59,944 nt of DNA from a virus: positions 1 through 59,944 of IMG/VR virus record IMGVR_UViG_3300043661_000028; one strand, given 5' to 3'. Both the position numbers and the translations under genes were made by a program. This document shows, in pieces, positions 26,822 through 33,635 of the stretch. Numbering within the stretch: position 1 is the first letter of the stretch; the number at the start of each line of letters is the position of its first letter. Below the pieces are notes generated by a model. The model was not told the DNA's origin, did no database searches, and saw only the letters and a program-made list of their open reading frames with translations.

Positions 26822-26995
26822 ATGGGGCTGCACTGGCGGGCCAGCATCACGCATGACCCCCGGTTCGTGAATATCCCGTACTGGCCGCACAGGATCATCG
26901 TGATCGGCTGGGGCAGGCTAAGCCGCCGCGCCGTCTTCCACCCGAATCAGCCATGCATCTACCGGATGCACCTGCAGCATTGCTGCGAACACTGA
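26822..26995 (+). CDS. hypothetical protein (57 aa)
   Basis: ATG 26822. MGLHWRASITHDPRFVNIPY then WPHRIIVIGWGRLSRRAVFH and a His/Cys-rich end (CIYRMHLQHCCEH), possibly metal-binding. It ends in the TGACCATG junction that starts the HNH gene. Confidence 0.4.
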   Translation: MGLHWRASITHDPRFVNIPYWPHRIIVIGWGRLSRRAVFHPNQPCIYRMHLQHCCEH

Positions 26996-26997
26996 CC

Positions 26998-27303
26998 ATG
27001 GGCGCACGTGTGCGCTGGCGCGGCACCACAGCACAGCGCGGCTACGACCACCGCCACCAAGCCGAACGCGAACGGCGCCTCGCCATGTACAGGCCCGGCG
27101 ACCGGTGCGCCCACGGCGGCGAACCACTGACCTGGTGGCCGCTGACGGTGGCACGGCGTTTCCTGGACCTCCCGCACACGCCCGACCGCACCGGCTATCT
27201 ACCTGGACTTTCCTGTCGCCGCCATAATCGCGGCGAGGGCGCGACCAGGGGGAATCGCAAGCGTGACAGGATCAGGACATGGCAGACATCACGCCAGTGG
27301 TGA
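26998..27303 (+). CDS. HNH-type nuclease-like protein
   Basis: 101 residues. RGYDHRHQAERERRLAMYRP, then CAHGGEPLTWWPL and DLPHTPDRTGYLPGLSCRRH followed by NRGEGATR. The order (RGYDH, C..H, DLxH, then GLxCxxHNxxxGA) is that of small phage HNH nucleases, which often sit just before the terminase and help packaging. One Cys pair is incomplete, so activity is uncertain. Confidence 0.65.
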   Translation: MGARVRWRGTTAQRGYDHRHQAERERRLAMYRPGDRCAHGGEPLTWWPLTVARRFLDLPHTPDRTGYLPGLSCRRHNRGEGATRGNRKRDRIRTWQTSRQW

Positions 27304-27796: not shown

Positions 27797-27914
27797 CGCA
27801 CATGACGCCTGCGCTTGCACATGCCCGTTGCGCTTGCCGTCTGCGTTAGATGGTCGCGGTTGCGATGGGATGGCACGACGGATGGCAGTGACAGGCAGTG
27901 ACCACGGTCGGTGC

Positions 27915-27992
27915 GACCACCCGCCTGATGATCAGTGACCACCCGCCGACCTGAGCGACCACCCGCCGGTGCCTGGCACTCCGACCACCCGC
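27915..27992. repeat. four iteron-like repeats GACCACCCGC before terminase
   Basis: GACCACCCGC occurs at 27915, 27937, 27957 and 27983, with steps of 22, 20 and 26 bp, close to two helical turns. The region lies just before the small terminase gene, where cos or pac sites commonly are. The whole 343-bp gap 27761-28103 contains these repeats and no convincing gene. Confidence 0.7.
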
Positions 27993-28065
27993 GAGCCTCT
28001 GACCGGCAAGGATGGATCGCGCGCTTGCTGGAGCTGACCTGCCGCGACTCCGCAGCCGTGCGTCA

Positions 28066-28092
28066 TATATTCGGCACTCAGTGTTACGTAAC
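28066..28092 (+). promoter_or_regulatory. -10 element and GTTACGTAAC palindrome before terminase
   Basis: TATATT at 28066-28071 is a good -10 without a clear -35. GTTACGTAAC (28083-28092) is a perfect palindrome at about the expected transcription start. Together they suggest a regulated late promoter. Confidence 0.45.
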
Positions 28093-28103
28093 GGAGGGTG
28101 ATT

Positions 28104-28403
28104 TTGGCTGATTCTGACGCCCTCCGGATGCGCCGGTCGCGCCGGCACAAGGCGGGTGATCACTCGCTGTGCCGCAACTGCGCGGCCCTGAAACTTGCCG
28201 CGCCGGCGGCCTGCGGCGAGGTGACCGACGCGCGGGCCGAGCTGCGCCAGCTGGCGTACCGGATGGCTGCGGCGCACCGGGAGGACCCGTCGAACGCGTT
28301 CCTGGGCGCGGAGCTGCGCAAGACGCTGCTCGAGCTGATGCCGAAGGGCAACGCCGATGCCGATGCCGACCTCACGGGACTGTTCGGCGCCTTGCAGGCC
28401 TAG
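28104..28403 (+). CDS. terminase small subunit (probable)
   Basis: TTG 28104 was chosen because GGAGGG (28093-28098) is at the right distance; GTG 28098 overlaps it. MRRSRRHKAGDHSLCRNCAA, then ELRQLAYRMAAAHREDPSNA and FLGAELRKTLLELMP. This basic RSRRH.AGDHSLC start with a helical second half is typical of small terminase-like proteins encoded before actinophage large terminases. It should bind the packaging site and recruit the large subunit. Confidence 0.6.
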   Translation: MADSDALRMRRSRRHKAGDHSLCRNCAALKLAAPAACGEVTDARAELRQLAYRMAAAHREDPSNAFLGAELRKTLLELMPKGNADADADLTGLFGALQA

Positions 28404-29298
28404 GTTCGCCACTCCCGCCACGGACCGCCCGAACCTGGCCGCCGGGATCTCCAGGACGGCGGCGCTGCTCGGGTTCCGCACGTCGCTCGGGCCTGGCCTG
28501 ATGCCGTGGCAGGACGAGGCGAACGCCGTCACGACGGAGCTGCTGCCGGACGGCCGGTTCGCGTACCGGCAGGTCGTGATCGAGGTGATGCGGCAGCAGG
28601 GCAAGACGGTGGACCTGCTGTCGATGATGGTCGCGCGGGCCTTGCGCCGTCCCGGCACGCAGATCAGCTACACGGCGCAGACGCGGCTGGACGCGCGGCA
28701 CCGGCTGCTGGACGTGTGGTGGCCGCTGGTTGAGCGGTCCAAGCTGCGGCGGTTCATCGACGTGCGGCGCGGCTCCGGGAGCGAGGCGTACCTGTTCAGG
28801 AACGGCTCCATGCTGGGCCTGGTGTCCGGGACGAAGACCTCCGGTCACGGCGACGTGCTCGATTTGGGCGTCATAGACGAGGCCTGGGCGCAGGAGGATG
28901 ATCACCTGGAGCAGGCGATGCGCCCGGCGATGATGACGCGGGACGCGCAGCTGTGGGTGGTCAGCGCGGCGGGCACGGAGAAGTCGGCGTATTTCCGCGG
29001 GAAGGTCGACGACGGGCGGGCCCGCGCGGAGATGGGCGTGACGGAGAACGGGTGCTACATCGGGTACAGCGCGGCGGATGATGAGGACCCCGCGGACCCG
29101 GCTACCTGGTGGCGCCGGATGCCCGCGCTGGGGATCACGGTGACGGAGGAGACCGTGAAGGCCGACTTCGAGCTGATGGACCTTCCCGAGTTCCGGCGGG
29201 CGTACCTGTGCCAGTGGCCGGATGTGGCGAAGCCGGGCTGGGAAGTCATCGGCAAGGACACGTGGGGCGCGGCGGCTGTCCCGCAGGGCCGGCTATGA
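28357..29298 (+). CDS. terminase large subunit, ATPase part
   Basis: 313 residues. RQVVIEVMRQQGKTVDLLSM has the Walker-A-like RQQGKT at ~76-81. A Walker-B-like stretch is DVLDLGVIDEAWAQEDDHLE at ~166-185. VSAAGTEKSAYFRGKV is the following coupling motif, and the chain ends after WPDVAKPGWEVIGKDTWGAA. An ordinary large terminase would continue into the nuclease domain. Here a TGA at 29296-29298 ends the frame exactly between domains, and the nuclease is coded separately at 29381-29911. The start is uncertain (ATG 28357 or 28363, inside the small subunit gene). Confidence 0.85.
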   Translation: MPMPTSRDCSAPCRPRFATPATDRPNLAAGISRTAALLGFRTSLGPGLMPWQDEANAVTTELLPDGRFAYRQVVIEVMRQQGKTVDLLSMMVARALRRPGTQISYTAQTRLDARHRLLDVWWPLVERSKLRRFIDVRRGSGSEAYLFRNGSMLGLVSGTKTSGHGDVLDLGVIDEAWAQEDDHLEQAMRPAMMTRDAQLWVVSAAGTEKSAYFRGKVDDGRARAEMGVTENGCYIGYSAADDEDPADPATWWRRMPALGITVTEETVKADFELMDLPEFRRAYLCQWPDVAKPGWEVIGKDTWGAAAVPQGRL

Positions 29299-29384
29299 GT
29301 GAAAGTCCGCCGGAAGTCGGCCATCTGCCAAGGTCAGCGCCCGGCATGTATTGTTACCGGCTCGTGAAAGTCCGCCGGAAATGA
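29295..29384 (+). CDS. 29-codon linker ORF between the terminase parts
   Basis: ATG 29295 overlaps the ATPase-part stop (ATGA). Its TGA 29382-29384 overlaps the ATG of the nuclease part (ATGA). The product MSESPPEVGHLPRSAPGMYC then YRLVKVRRK has no known fold. The perfect double overlap suggests it keeps ribosomes moving from one terminase part to the other. Confidence 0.5.
   Translation: MSESPPEVGHLPRSAPGMYCYRLVKVRRK
29299..29380. repeat. 17-bp direct repeats flanking the terminase gap
   Basis: GTGAAAGTCCGCCGGAA is present at 29299-29315 and again at 29364-29380, each preceded by CCGGCT a few bases before. ATGAG also stands at both ends (29295, 29381). This looks like a duplication or insertion of 65-86 bp. 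Confidence 0.9.
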
Positions 29385-29911
29385 GCGGCGAGGTCGCGTT
29401 CGGGTGCGCGATCAGCGACAGCTGCGCCTGCCATCCGAAGAAAGCCCGGCAGCACGGCTCCATCGTCGCCGCCGGGCGTAGCGCGTCGGGGAAGATCCTG
29501 GTCGACCTGGCGCCGTTCTACGGTCACCCGTGGCTGCTGGTGCCCCGGATGGAGATGCTGTGGGCGAAGCATGACCCGGTGGCGGTGGTGGTGAACCCGA
29601 AGTCGCATTCGGGGACGCTGGTGAAGCCGCTGGCCGACGCCGGGATCCTGGTGCGCGAGGTGACGGCGCAGGAGGTCGCCGTGGCCCACGGCGAGTTCCT
29701 CGACCTGGTTGATGACGAGGGCCTGGAGCACCTGGACCAGGACCCGCTGACCGCTGCTGTGCGGGCCGCGCAGCAGCGTCCCCTGGCGGGCGCGCAGGCG
29801 TGGGACCCGAAGGTGGCCGTTGATCAGGGACCGCTGGTGGCGGCGACGCTGGCGACGTGGGCGTTCGCGCGGTGGGAAGAATTGGCCACGCCCGGCGTCT
29901 GGCAGGTCTAG
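29381..29911 (+). CDS. terminase large subunit, nuclease part
   Basis: 176 residues from ATG 29381. SGEVAFGCAISDSCACHPKK, then RQHGSIVAAGRSASGKILVD and PVAVVVNPKSHSGTLVKPLA. It follows the RNase-H-like pattern of a terminase nuclease: first strand with an Asp, a second acidic strand and a C-terminal DPKVAVDQGPLVAATLATWA helix region. With the ATPase part it makes a full-length terminase of ~490 residues. It should cut concatemeric DNA at packaging. Confidence 0.8.
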   Translation: MSGEVAFGCAISDSCACHPKKARQHGSIVAAGRSASGKILVDLAPFYGHPWLLVPRMEMLWAKHDPVAVVVNPKSHSGTLVKPLADAGILVREVTAQEVAVAHGEFLDLVDDEGLEHLDQDPLTAAVRAAQQRPLAGAQAWDPKVAVDQGPLVAATLATWAFARWEELATPGVWQV

Positions 29912-30185
29912 GTCCGGAACGCGAACCGGAATACCCGGGTCCCGTCGTCGCGGATGCTGCCGGTCCAGCGGTACACCGCAGTGTCCATCAGCGGCCTGGT
30001 CAGATCAGGTCCATCAGCGGCCTGGTCAGATCAGGTCCGGTGGCGGCCAGCGTGATTTCCGGCGGGATCGGCAGCTGCCGCGTGTCGCGGTTGCCGGGGA
30101 CGCACATCCGGCGGCCGTCGAAGTAGCCGCCGGTCAGCTCGATCTCTACCGGCGGATCGTCATACAGGTCCTCAATGCGGGACAT
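29908..30185 (-). pseudogene. small gene broken by a 26-bp tandem duplication
   Basis: From ATG 30185-30183 the protein reads MSRIEDLYDDPPVEIELTGG then YFDGRRMCVPGNRDTRQLPI, but stops at 30000 after RPLMDLI. The 26-bp unit at 29984-30009 is repeated at 30010-30035. Reading with one copy removed gives RPLMDTAVYRWTGSIRDDGT then RVFRFAFRT and a stop at 29908, an 83-residue protein of a type common in Streptomyces phages. The duplication is therefore the likely cause of truncation. If the short form is used, it ends at 30000 (61 aa). Confidence 0.7.
29984..30035. repeat. 26-bp exact tandem duplication
   Basis: Two adjacent copies of a 26-bp unit beginning TCCATCAGCGGCC (29984-30009 and 30010-30035). 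The unit is not a multiple of three, so it shifts the leftward gene's frame. Confidence 0.95.
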
Positions 30186-30208
30186 GGAGCCCAGCTTAGG
30201 AGGCACCG

Positions 30209-30430
30209 ATGCGCCTGTCCGCCGTCCTGCTGCTGTGTTCCCTCGCCGGGGTCCTGGGCGGCGCGTGGCTGATCGGCCGGTGGGCGCTGGGCGCGGCGAT
30301 CGTGGCGGACAGCGTCGCGGTGGCCGCGTGGGCGCTGTTCCACGATGACGGCGCGGGCCGCCCGGAGCCGTCGGTGCATGAGGTGCCGACGCTGGCGCAG
30401 GTGCTGGAAAGGGCCCGGCGGGCCGGGTGA
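30209..30430 (+). CDS. membrane protein (73 aa)
   Basis: ATG 30209 after GGAGGC. Two hydrophobic segments (LSAVLLLCSLAGVLGGAWLI and ALGAAIVADSVAVAAWALF) then a soluble tail (EPSVHEVPTLAQVLERARRA). Located between terminase and portal. Unknown function; possibly host-envelope related. Confidence 0.6.
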   Translation: MRLSAVLLLCSLAGVLGGAWLIGRWALGAAIVADSVAVAAWALFHDDGAGRPEPSVHEVPTLAQVLERARRAG

Positions 30431-30896: not shown

Positions 30897-32335
30897 GGCT
30901 GATTGACCGGCTGATCCGCCGGGACGGCTACTGGGAAGGCCAGGCCAGCGGCGCCGCGGTCCTGACCACCTCCTACGGGTCCCCGGACCGGGAGGCGGTC
31001 CTGCCGCAGCTGACCGCGTGGGCGCAGCAGGCCAACGCGTCCGCGTCACCGGTGTTCTCCGCCATCCTGGTCCGGATGATGCTGCTGGCCGAGGCGCAGT
31101 TCCAGCTGCAGGCCAAGGACGACAAGCACCTGTACGGGAACACCAGCCTGGCGGTGCTGGAGCACCCGTGGGGCCCGGACACGGTGTCGGGTGAGCTGAT
31201 CGCCCGCTGCGAGCAGGACGCCAGCGTGGCCGGGAACTCCTACACGTGGGCGCCCCCCGGCGAGGACGTCCTGGTCCGGCTCCGCCCCGACTGGACCACG
31301 ATCGTGTCCGAGCGGGTGGCGGTGGACAGCGGGGATCCCGCTCACCCGGGCTGGTACCGCAAGAAAATCGGCTACTGGCATGAGCCGCCCAGGTCGGTGA
31401 CCGACCAGGGCAGCGGGTTCCTCGCCCCCGCGGAAGAAGTGGCCCACTGGGCGCCCATCACCGACCCGAACGCCACGTTCCGGGGCATGTCCTGGCTGAC
31501 GCCGGTGATGCGGGACGTGCAGGGCGACGACGGGATGGCCCAGTACAAGATCCGGTACCTGACCAACAACGCCACGCCGAACATCGTCATCAAGTACGCG
31601 CAGAAGCTGCAGCCGGCCACGATCGATAGCATCCGGGACCGGGTCAACGCCCGGTACGGCGGCCCGGACAACGCCGGGAAGACCCTGATCCTGGATCAGG
31701 GCGCGGACCTGGTGCTGGCCGGGAACAGCCTGTTGCAGATGGACTTCGCGAACGTCACGCAGGCGGGCATCGAGCGGATCCTGGCCGCGTCGGGGGTGCC
31801 GCCGCTGCTGATCGGCCTGGAATCCATCAAGGGCGCCGGCAAGTCGTATCAGGAGGTCATCCGCCGGTTCGGGGACCTGACGCTGCGGCCGTTGTGGCGG
31901 TCGCTGTGCGGCGCGCTGGAACCCCTCGTCCCCGGCGTCCCGGCCGGAAGCCGCTTGTGGGTCGACACCAGCGACATCGCCGCGCTGCAGGACGGCGAGC
32001 AGGTCCGCGCGCAGGTCACCCTGATCCGCGCCCAGGCGCTGCTGGCACTGGAGCAGGCCGGTTATGACCGGATGAGCGCGGTCAAGGCGATCGAGGCCGG
32101 TGACATGGGGCAGCTGGAGGAGGCCGAGGAGCCGCCGCCGCCGCAGAACCTGCCGGTGCAACATTTGCTCGGGCAGCCCGGCCAGCCAGGCGCGACCGCG
32201 GACCCGCTGCCGCCGACCATGCCCAGGCTGCCGGTCGGGTCGACGTCGCCGGGTGACGGCGGGAACAACACGCGGCCGACCCCGCGGCCGTCGTCGGCGC
32301 GCCGGGCGCTCGAGGGCGCGAACGGCCGTGGATGA
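30893..32335 (+). CDS. portal protein (HK97 family)
   Basis: 480 residues from GTG 30893. VFSAILVRMMLLAEAQFQLQ then GNSYTWAPPGEDVLVRLRPD (clip/stem region) and AQYKIRYLTNNATPNIVIKY are typical of siphovirus portal proteins. QAGIERILAASGVPPLLIGL matches the wing/crown region. It would form the dodecameric DNA entry ring at one capsid vertex. The C-terminus is Pro-rich (~420-480). It lies in normal order after the terminase and overlaps the protease by 8 bp. Confidence 0.93.
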   Translation: MRLIDRLIRRDGYWEGQASGAAVLTTSYGSPDREAVLPQLTAWAQQANASASPVFSAILVRMMLLAEAQFQLQAKDDKHLYGNTSLAVLEHPWGPDTVSGELIARCEQDASVAGNSYTWAPPGEDVLVRLRPDWTTIVSERVAVDSGDPAHPGWYRKKIGYWHEPPRSVTDQGSGFLAPAEEVAHWAPITDPNATFRGMSWLTPVMRDVQGDDGMAQYKIRYLTNNATPNIVIKYAQKLQPATIDSIRDRVNARYGGPDNAGKTLILDQGADLVLAGNSLLQMDFANVTQAGIERILAASGVPPLLIGLESIKGAGKSYQEVIRRFGDLTLRPLWRSLCGALEPLVPGVPAGSRLWVDTSDIAALQDGEQVRAQVTLIRAQALLALEQAGYDRMSAVKAIEAGDMGQLEEAEEPPPPQNLPVQHLLGQPGQPGATADPLPPTMPRLPVGSTSPGDGGNNTRPTPRPSSARRALEGANGRG

Positions 32336-33635
32336 GCACGGCGCGGTCCGGCTCGGCGGCCAGGCTGCCCACCCAGGGGACACCGAACGCCTCCACGCGT
32401 ACTGGGTGCATGGTCCCGGCGCGGCCAAGGTTGCGTGGGGGACGCCCGGGGATTTTGACCGGTGCGTGGCCGAACTCGGCAAGTACATCAAGGACGCGGC
32501 CGGGTATTGCAATTTGGCGCACCATGCGGCGCTCGGCATCTGGCCTGCGCAGCACGCGGCGATGGAGAAGAAAGCGACCGGGAGGTCCACGGTGACGGTG
32601 ACGCAGCGCGCGGCGATGGCAACCGCGGACGTCAATGACCTGCCCGACGACCAGTTCGGTTACGTCGAGCAGGGCGGGGCCAAAGACGGGTCCGGGAAGA
32701 CCGTCCCGCGGTCGCTGCGGCATTTCCCGCTCCACGACAAGGCCCACGTCCAGAACGCGCTGGCCCAGGCATCGAAGTCACCGTTCGGCGACAAGGCCAT
32801 GCCGAAGATCAAGGCCGCAGCCAAGAAGTTCGGAGTTGACGTGAGCAGCGACAGCAACGGCAGCGCGTCCCGCGCGGAGCCGGTGTACTTCCGCACCTAT
32901 GAGCTCGAGGACATCCACATCGTCCGCGCGGCCCAGGGTGACAGCACCGGCCGGCTCGTCGAGGCGTACGCCACGGCGTTCAACGCCCCCGCCGAGATCC
33001 AGGACTTCGAGGGCCACTACATCGAGGAGATCGACCCGGCCGCGTTCAACAAGGTCCTCGCCGACATCGGCCGCAGCCGGGCGGGGTTCGGCAAGGTCAA
33101 GGTCATGTACAACCACGGGATGACGATCCACGGCACCCCGTCCGAGCGGGGCAGCATGCCGATCGCGACGCCCGTGGACATCCGTCCCGAGGCCCGCGGG
33201 CTGCTGACCCTGGCGCGGTACTCCGAGACACCGTTCGCCGATGAGGTCCTGGAGAACATCCGCAACGGCGCGATCACCGCCCAGTCGTTCATCGGCCGGA
33301 TCGTCCGCTCCGACCCGCAGGTCCGCGTCGGGGTCCGTCACCGGCCGCGCGGCGGGCAGCTGACCAGGGTCCGGCGCACCGAGCTGGGCCTGAAAGAGTT
33401 CGGCCCGACACCGTTCGAGGCCTACAGCGGCGCCGAGATCGTCGGCGTCCGCATGTCCGCTCCCGGCACCTGGGAGCCGGACGAGCACGAAGAGGCACTT
33501 CCCCCCGATGGTGAAGCCGCCGCCGGTGAGCCGCCCCCGCAAGGAGACGAGGGGCACTCGGCCCGGTATCACCAGCATTCGCTGTACGTCCTGAACTCTA
33601 AGGAGCTGCGGGAAAAGGCGGGGCTGGTCTGGTAA
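32328..33635 (+). CDS. prohead protease with N-terminal extra domains
   Basis: 435 residues from GTG 32328. Residues ~22-75 (LHAYWVHGPGAAKVAWGTPG, then FDRCVAELGKYIKDAAGYCN) form a small domain often found with actinophage portal/protease genes. Residues ~120-170 (RSLRHFPLHDKAHVQNALAQ) match a DUF6582-like segment. The HK97-type protease follows (~185-345), with the likely catalytic His in VKVMYNHGM and Ser in GAITAQSFIGRIV. It trims the scaffold domain of the capsid protein before expansion. The fusion is longer than the usual ~200-residue protease. Confidence 0.85.
   Translation: MDEHGAVRLGGQAAHPGDTERLHAYWVHGPGAAKVAWGTPGDFDRCVAELGKYIKDAAGYCNLAHHAALGIWPAQHAAMEKKATGRSTVTVTQRAAMATADVNDLPDDQFGYVEQGGAKDGSGKTVPRSLRHFPLHDKAHVQNALAQASKSPFGDKAMPKIKAAAKKFGVDVSSDSNGSASRAEPVYFRTYELEDIHIVRAAQGDSTGRLVEAYATAFNAPAEIQDFEGHYIEEIDPAAFNKVLADIGRSRAGFGKVKVMYNHGMTIHGTPSERGSMPIATPVDIRPEARGLLTLARYSETPFADEVLENIRNGAITAQSFIGRIVRSDPQVRVGVRHRPRGGQLTRVRRTELGLKEFGPTPFEAYSGAEIVGVRMSAPGTWEPDEHEEALPPDGEAAAGEPPPQGDEGHSARYHQHSLYVLNSKELREKAGLVW

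Follow-up and report, generated by a model that had tools for sequence, protein, structure and literature searches.

The window, which is the whole 59,944-nucleotide stretch of viral DNA analyzed here, carries its large terminase (TerL) as three overlapping open reading frames (ORFs) on the plus strand, as read directly from the sequence: an ATPase gene, a 29-codon ORF and a nuclease gene, with ATGA at each joint. Gene 1 (28357..29298; ATG at 28357, TGA at 29298) encodes a terminase large-subunit ATPase of 313 amino acids that ends in the inter-domain linker, and gene 2 (29381..29911; ATG at 29381, TAG at 29911) encodes a terminase nuclease-domain protein on its own, with 176 amino acids and a predicted RNase H fold. 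The 29-codon ORF between them (29295..29384; ATG at 29295, TGA at 29384; 29 amino acids, MSESPPEVGHLPRSAPGMYCYRLVKVRRK) shares bases of its ATG with the ATPase stop at the first ATGA (29295..29298), and its own stop shares bases with the nuclease start at the second (29381..29384). In most relatives, the four-nucleotide joint at the ATPase end holds the nuclease start directly. The ORF bridges an insert of 82 bp that is unique to this contig (29299..29380), or an 86-bp unit if measured from ATGAG to ATGAG (29295 and 29381, spaced by 86 bp). Exact copies of a 17-bp direct repeat, GTGAAAGTCCGCCGGAA, lie at its two ends (29299..29315 and 29364..29380, both on the plus strand). A sequence-only reading of this stretch had given the same coordinates, ATGA joints and repeats, and direct reading confirmed all of them. 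A 26-bp tandem repeat, GTCCATCAGCGGCCTGGTCAGATCAG, is present in two copies just 3′ of the nuclease gene (29983-30034), and a consensus search of positions 27800-30300 found no local promoter or terminator.

Both halves match one PHROG terminase family, phrog_9, in order, with E values of 8e-34 for the ATPase half (profile positions 95-472) and 2e-6 for the nuclease half (561-667). The match of the ATPase to the Pfam family TerL_ATPase (1.6e-4) falls slightly under the family cut-off. Its motor domain carries the Walker A (RQQGK) and Walker B (IDEA) motifs of the P-loop ATPase that a TerL should possess, and these are almost invariant among 38 relatives. The AF2 model of this protein has a pLDDT of 80, and values fall below 50 in the last 24 residues (290-313), which form the linker. 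Such a low-confidence C-terminal tail is as expected if the protein indeed stops at the linker. Fused relatives align straight across the point where the window ATPase ends. Upstream, a 101-amino-acid ORF (28098..28403, plus strand) overlaps the ATPase start, a placing that fits a small terminase subunit, and has no family match. Further downstream, the first start codon of the head-protease frame (32100-33635) falls well within the portal gene (end at 32335).

No terminase was matched when the nuclease family profile was compared with PDB sequences, and only fold comparison revealed the likeness. The AF2 model of the nuclease, predicted alone with 57 relatives, has a pLDDT of 88.5 and a pTM of 0.86, and its 21 nearest solved folds are all terminase nuclease domains (VIA-align against the PDB). 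The best match is HK97 TerL (6z6d; Z 13.2 over 149 residues, 2.9 A), and further matches include G20c (Z 12.8) and T4 (Z 12.4). As modeled, the nuclease gene alone encodes a complete TerL nuclease domain fold, the RNase H-fold domain expected of this enzyme. Both halves are under purifying selection when compared with close relatives, as evident by omega values of 0.13-0.37 for the ATPase and 0.14-0.38 for the nuclease.

To place this arrangement among its relatives, related loci were collected by IMG/VR scans and one bacterial-genome scan, which yielded 108 distinct junctions with the window included. The terminase is split in 98 of these (the window counted among them) and fused in 10, so in most of the group the large terminase is encoded not as one polypeptide but as two, with ATPase and nuclease in separate genes. 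An exact four-nucleotide overlap with no insert, the RTGA stop-start overlap expected of a translationally coupled gene pair, occurs at 69 of the 98 split junctions and is almost always GTGA. Inserts of 82 to 1035 nucleotides occupy 23 split junctions, again including the window. Relatives whose ATPase is 70-93% identical have the same gene pair with the four-nucleotide overlap and lack the gap; the nearest (L003, 93% identity) is without an insert. Fused genes are confined to ATPase identities of 74% or less, and then occur with other nuclease domains. Because the nearest relatives have the split but not the insert, the split is older than, and independent of, the 82-bp piece. The proposal in the sequence-only reading that this might be a two-subunit terminase is therefore supported as far as the split is concerned, both by the gene pairs of the relatives and by purifying selection on the two halves, and its suggested comparison with sister phages turned up no uninterrupted single gene at high identity.

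Almost all of these relatives are metagenome contigs. One (L105) lies within an Actinomycetota metagenome-assembled genome, and the hosts of these phages probably belong to that group. No DNA relatives were found among isolated phages, no nuclease with 60% identity or more is present in 50,697 phage records, and each of the 12 isolated-phage records examined has a single terminase large-subunit gene.

The insert itself is absent from the other 107 junctions, and no relative of it was found in 1.46 Mb of loci plus the window. Thus the earlier suggestion that 65-86 bp had been inserted holds in the form of a lineage-specific insertion of 82 bp. Its 17-bp repeat is beyond chance (shuffling the 82 bp 5000 times gave repeats of at most 11), and the 17-mer occurs once elsewhere in IMG/VR, within an unrelated gene (L104). 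No Rfam match was obtained in the window at gathering thresholds, and the RNA fold of the insert is no better than that of shuffled sequences (z -0.2 to -0.4). An intein or a group I/II intron was rejected on these grounds and because the piece is just 82 bp, and a known mobile element was rejected because of the missing Rfam match, the single unrelated occurrence of the 17-mer and the lack of any relative in the 1.46 Mb.

It is very unlikely that the 29-codon ORF specifies a linker peptide or a small subunit that functions in the terminase. The exact ATGA overlap at either end would favor such a role, as would the fact that other inserts at this joint encode recognizable proteins. However, its peptide has no Pfam match, the insert that encodes it has no homologue among the loci, and most relatives have nothing at that place. 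The exact fit of three frames, which the sequence-only reading took to make chance less likely, is weak evidence for the window alone: among shuffled inserts, an open in-frame bridge arises with a probability of ~0.39, which becomes ~0.13 once the frame is counted. Moreover, the two copies of the 17-bp repeat are read in different frames within the ORF, and therefore yield no peptide repeat. The ORF is a minor lineage-specific bridge that plays no part in splitting the terminase, and its 29-amino-acid product would be only a consequence of bridging.

The joint has received many other insertions. With that of the window counted, ~18 different insert types lie at the same place, many of them bounded by RTGA. 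Some carry ORFs of 38, 58, 62, 76 or 86 amino acids, the last of which is a DUF2283 protein. Others carry whole genes between the two halves, including an N6/N4 methyltransferase (L042, 1092-1784; L098, 1158-1823; L141, 1239-1910), a Dam methylase followed by endonuclease VII (L166, 1462-2492), endonuclease VII in L053, and helix-turn-helix (HTH) genes on the opposite strand in L057 and L174. Two related phages have a 107-bp non-coding hairpin insert (L004, 3827-3933, fold z -5.2; L014, 1226-1332, z -2.6). The ATPase genes of these two phages end with TAG or TAA rather than TGA.

Exact RTGA bridging is found for eight of the 18 insert types, versus 1.06 expected (P ~1e-6), in a conservative count that leaves out L174 (the HTH gene on the other strand) and L240 (low-complexity), both doubtful as genes. 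The exact bridging is therefore significant only across the whole junction set, and not for the window alone. One simple explanation is that RTGA marks both the starts and the ends of genes in these compact operons, and that joining at this short stretch of homology preserves the chain of overlaps. The idea that a dedicated recombination sequence marks the joint was rejected, since silent-site identity at the nuclease start (0.64) is like that of the remaining gene. With no special conserved DNA at the joint, short homology or illegitimate recombination is the more likely route. The inteins of mycobacteriophage TerL genes are likewise mobile elements that target actinobacteriophage terminase genes, but they reside inside the ATPase domain and splice, whereas the joint described here accepts ordinary genes or spacers (PMC5050341). 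Nothing intein-like was found among the joint inserts.

These insertions also bear on the possibility, raised in the sequence-only reading, that the ribosome frameshifts or bypasses the gap to produce one fused large terminase. Such recoding could explain why the halves match one family in order and why fused forms occur among relatives, and a single -1 shift would link the frames at the four-nucleotide overlap. We nevertheless consider it highly improbable, as there is no slippery heptamer in the consensus of the 69 overlap junctions and the window insert folds like its shuffles. In at least eight overlap junctions, the nuclease frame is open for just 5-6 codons before its start, and any shift would therefore be confined to that stretch. 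Where complete genes lie between the halves, a single continuous product is very unlikely. Also highly improbable is a recent lesion or assembly error, by which the 82-bp insertion would have broken a single-gene terminase in this contig: the insert is indeed unique, carries a direct repeat and is known from assembled sequence alone, but the nearest relatives are split without it, purifying selection still acts on both halves, and the ATPase stop codon precedes the insert rather than lying within it, so that the separation of the genes does not come from the insert.

The two genes have not kept constant company. The identities of ATPase and nuclease correlate with r = 0.12 over 4278 pairs of split loci, compared with 0.96 between two halves of the ATPase and 0.82 between two halves of the nuclease, although the value of 0.12 mostly reflects four ATPase clusters, within which the correlation is higher (0.54-0.59). 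In the cluster to which the window belongs, the ATPase-nuclease correlation is 0.59 versus 0.76 between ATPase halves. The four ATPase clusters are less than 50% identical to one another and have one nuclease family in common, so that at least four ATPase lineages occur with the separate nuclease. The clearest example is L068. Up to the linker, its ATPase shares 67% identity with the fused terminases of Arthrobacter phages Kumotta and Shoya, but its nuclease matches that of the window at 89% identity and theirs at only 28-29%. Since ATPases of this cluster are present in nine loci, the pattern does not come from one chimeric assembly.

Phylogenetic trees are consistent with such exchange. In the nuclease tree, 93 separate nucleases all fall on one side of a branch and 16 fused ones on the other (support 96/87; 98% of bootstraps). 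In the ATPase trees, whose deep parts are unsure and whose branches are long, the split or fused label requires at least 5-6 changes. Both patterns would be explained by a single origin of the separate nuclease, repeated re-pairing with ATPases and some return to fused genes. The fused terminases of L054 (371-1828) and L055 (2276-3712) have an ATPase half that groups with split L041 and L044 and a nuclease half of the fused type, and they have apparently reverted from two genes to one through exchange.

The active site of the window nuclease differs from that of its fused relatives. RNase H-type nucleases hold their metal ligands on strand 1, immediately past strand 4, and immediately ahead of the final helix. 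In the AF2 model, residues 10, 72 and 148 occupy these three places, and HMMER aligns strand 1 of the fused family with GLDLS of HK97; their equivalence to metal ligands comes from alignments and strand positions rather than from a superposed model. Fused relatives mostly have acids at 10 and 72, whereas the window protein has A10 and N72, and retains D148. Two of the three metal-ligand acids expected of a TerL are therefore absent, and for this reason the window nuclease may not cut DNA. The missing acids lower confidence in DNA cutting, not in the identity of the protein as a TerL domain. Among the 93 separate nucleases, 50 have the A-N-D combination and 34 have E-D-D. When each protein is scored by whether the first two acids are both present or both absent, one change on the split-family tree suffices. 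Given this single change and the purifying selection on the gene, it seems probable that the clade of the window lost cutting once and that the domain was then retained under selection.

A precedent exists in gp16 of phi29, whose vestigial nuclease is also an RNase H-like terminase domain kept under selection without its catalytic acids, but there the domain is fused to the ATPase, whereas here it is a separate protein (PMC7672431). In addition, phi29 packages a unit-length genome (PMC7672431), and in the present group the acids are lost in only part of the clade. If the window protein does not cut, another nuclease might. A gene for an HNH or endonuclease VII-like protein lies upstream of the terminase (26953..27303, plus strand; phrog_1808 1.2e-4, phrog_2914 4.4e-4) and is found at the same place in relatives with 60-84% identity. 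Its product might be a DNA-cutting partner. However, presence of this gene does not distinguish acid-bearing from acid-less nucleases, and it also accompanies the E-D-D types.

We consider it very probable, from the gene arrangements and the predicted structures, that TerL in this group is encoded by two RTGA-joined genes whose joint permits partners to be swapped, and that in the window an 82-bp insert at this joint is bridged by the 29-codon ORF. The motor ATPase would stop within the linker, and the nuclease domain would begin a second, separate protein with an RNase H fold. We infer that the genes are translationally coupled, such that a ribosome ending the ATPase would restart on the nuclease gene at the GTGA or ATGA overlap, and that the two proteins would dock without a covalent link to form the packaging motor. 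Recombination at this joint probably exchanges partners and adds genes or spacers. The 82-bp piece with its 17-bp terminal repeats probably entered there and left ATGA on either side, which allows the bridge ORF to maintain the overlap chain. A more specific and quite tentative proposal is that the ATPase works with its non-covalent partner as a two-protein engine with free swapping. In the clade of the window the partner would be cutting-dead and serve only translocation or docking, and another nuclease, perhaps the HNH-like protein, would cut.

Compared with known systems, the terminase of the window shares its ATPase motifs, RNase H-fold domain, domain order and position ahead of the portal, protease and capsid genes with HK97-type TerL (phrog_9; 6z6d) and with the fused terminases of actinobacteriophages such as Rhodococcus phage RRH1 and Arthrobacter phages Decurro, BaileyBlu, Kumotta and Shoya. 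In contrast, these HK97-type and actinobacteriophage terminases are one chain, whereas the group of the window has two genes, a separate nuclease that forms its own clade and, in window-type members unlike HK97-type terminases, no acids at two of the three metal-ligand positions. Some actinobacteriophage annotations name ATPase-domain and nuclease-domain terminase genes separately. We found no description of a large terminase as split, two-gene or fissioned in open papers. Large terminases are described as single proteins that hold both an ATPase and a nuclease domain, and a review regards the RNase H domain at the C terminus of TerL as universal in tailed phages (PMC7824862).

The main finding is therefore a large terminase conserved as two genes whose parts can be exchanged, as predicted from the genomes of the window phage, which comes from soil, and ~100 relatives. 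In models of T4 packaging, the two TerL domains pull on each other via a hinge. When T4 gp17 is cut experimentally at its linker, the same division point between ATPase and nuclease domains as here, both enzymatic activities are kept but DNA translocation is abolished (PMC3012670), whereas the division in these phages is natural, conserved and under selection. A working split motor should therefore need a docking surface or some other mechanism, and a natural two-part motor divided at the T4 hinge point makes the need for a covalent link in the motor stroke directly testable. A conserved clade that has lost catalytic acids would allow what this domain does in translocation to be told apart from what it does in cutting. 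Finally, if partners are freely exchanged, phage trees built from "the terminase" may blend two histories.
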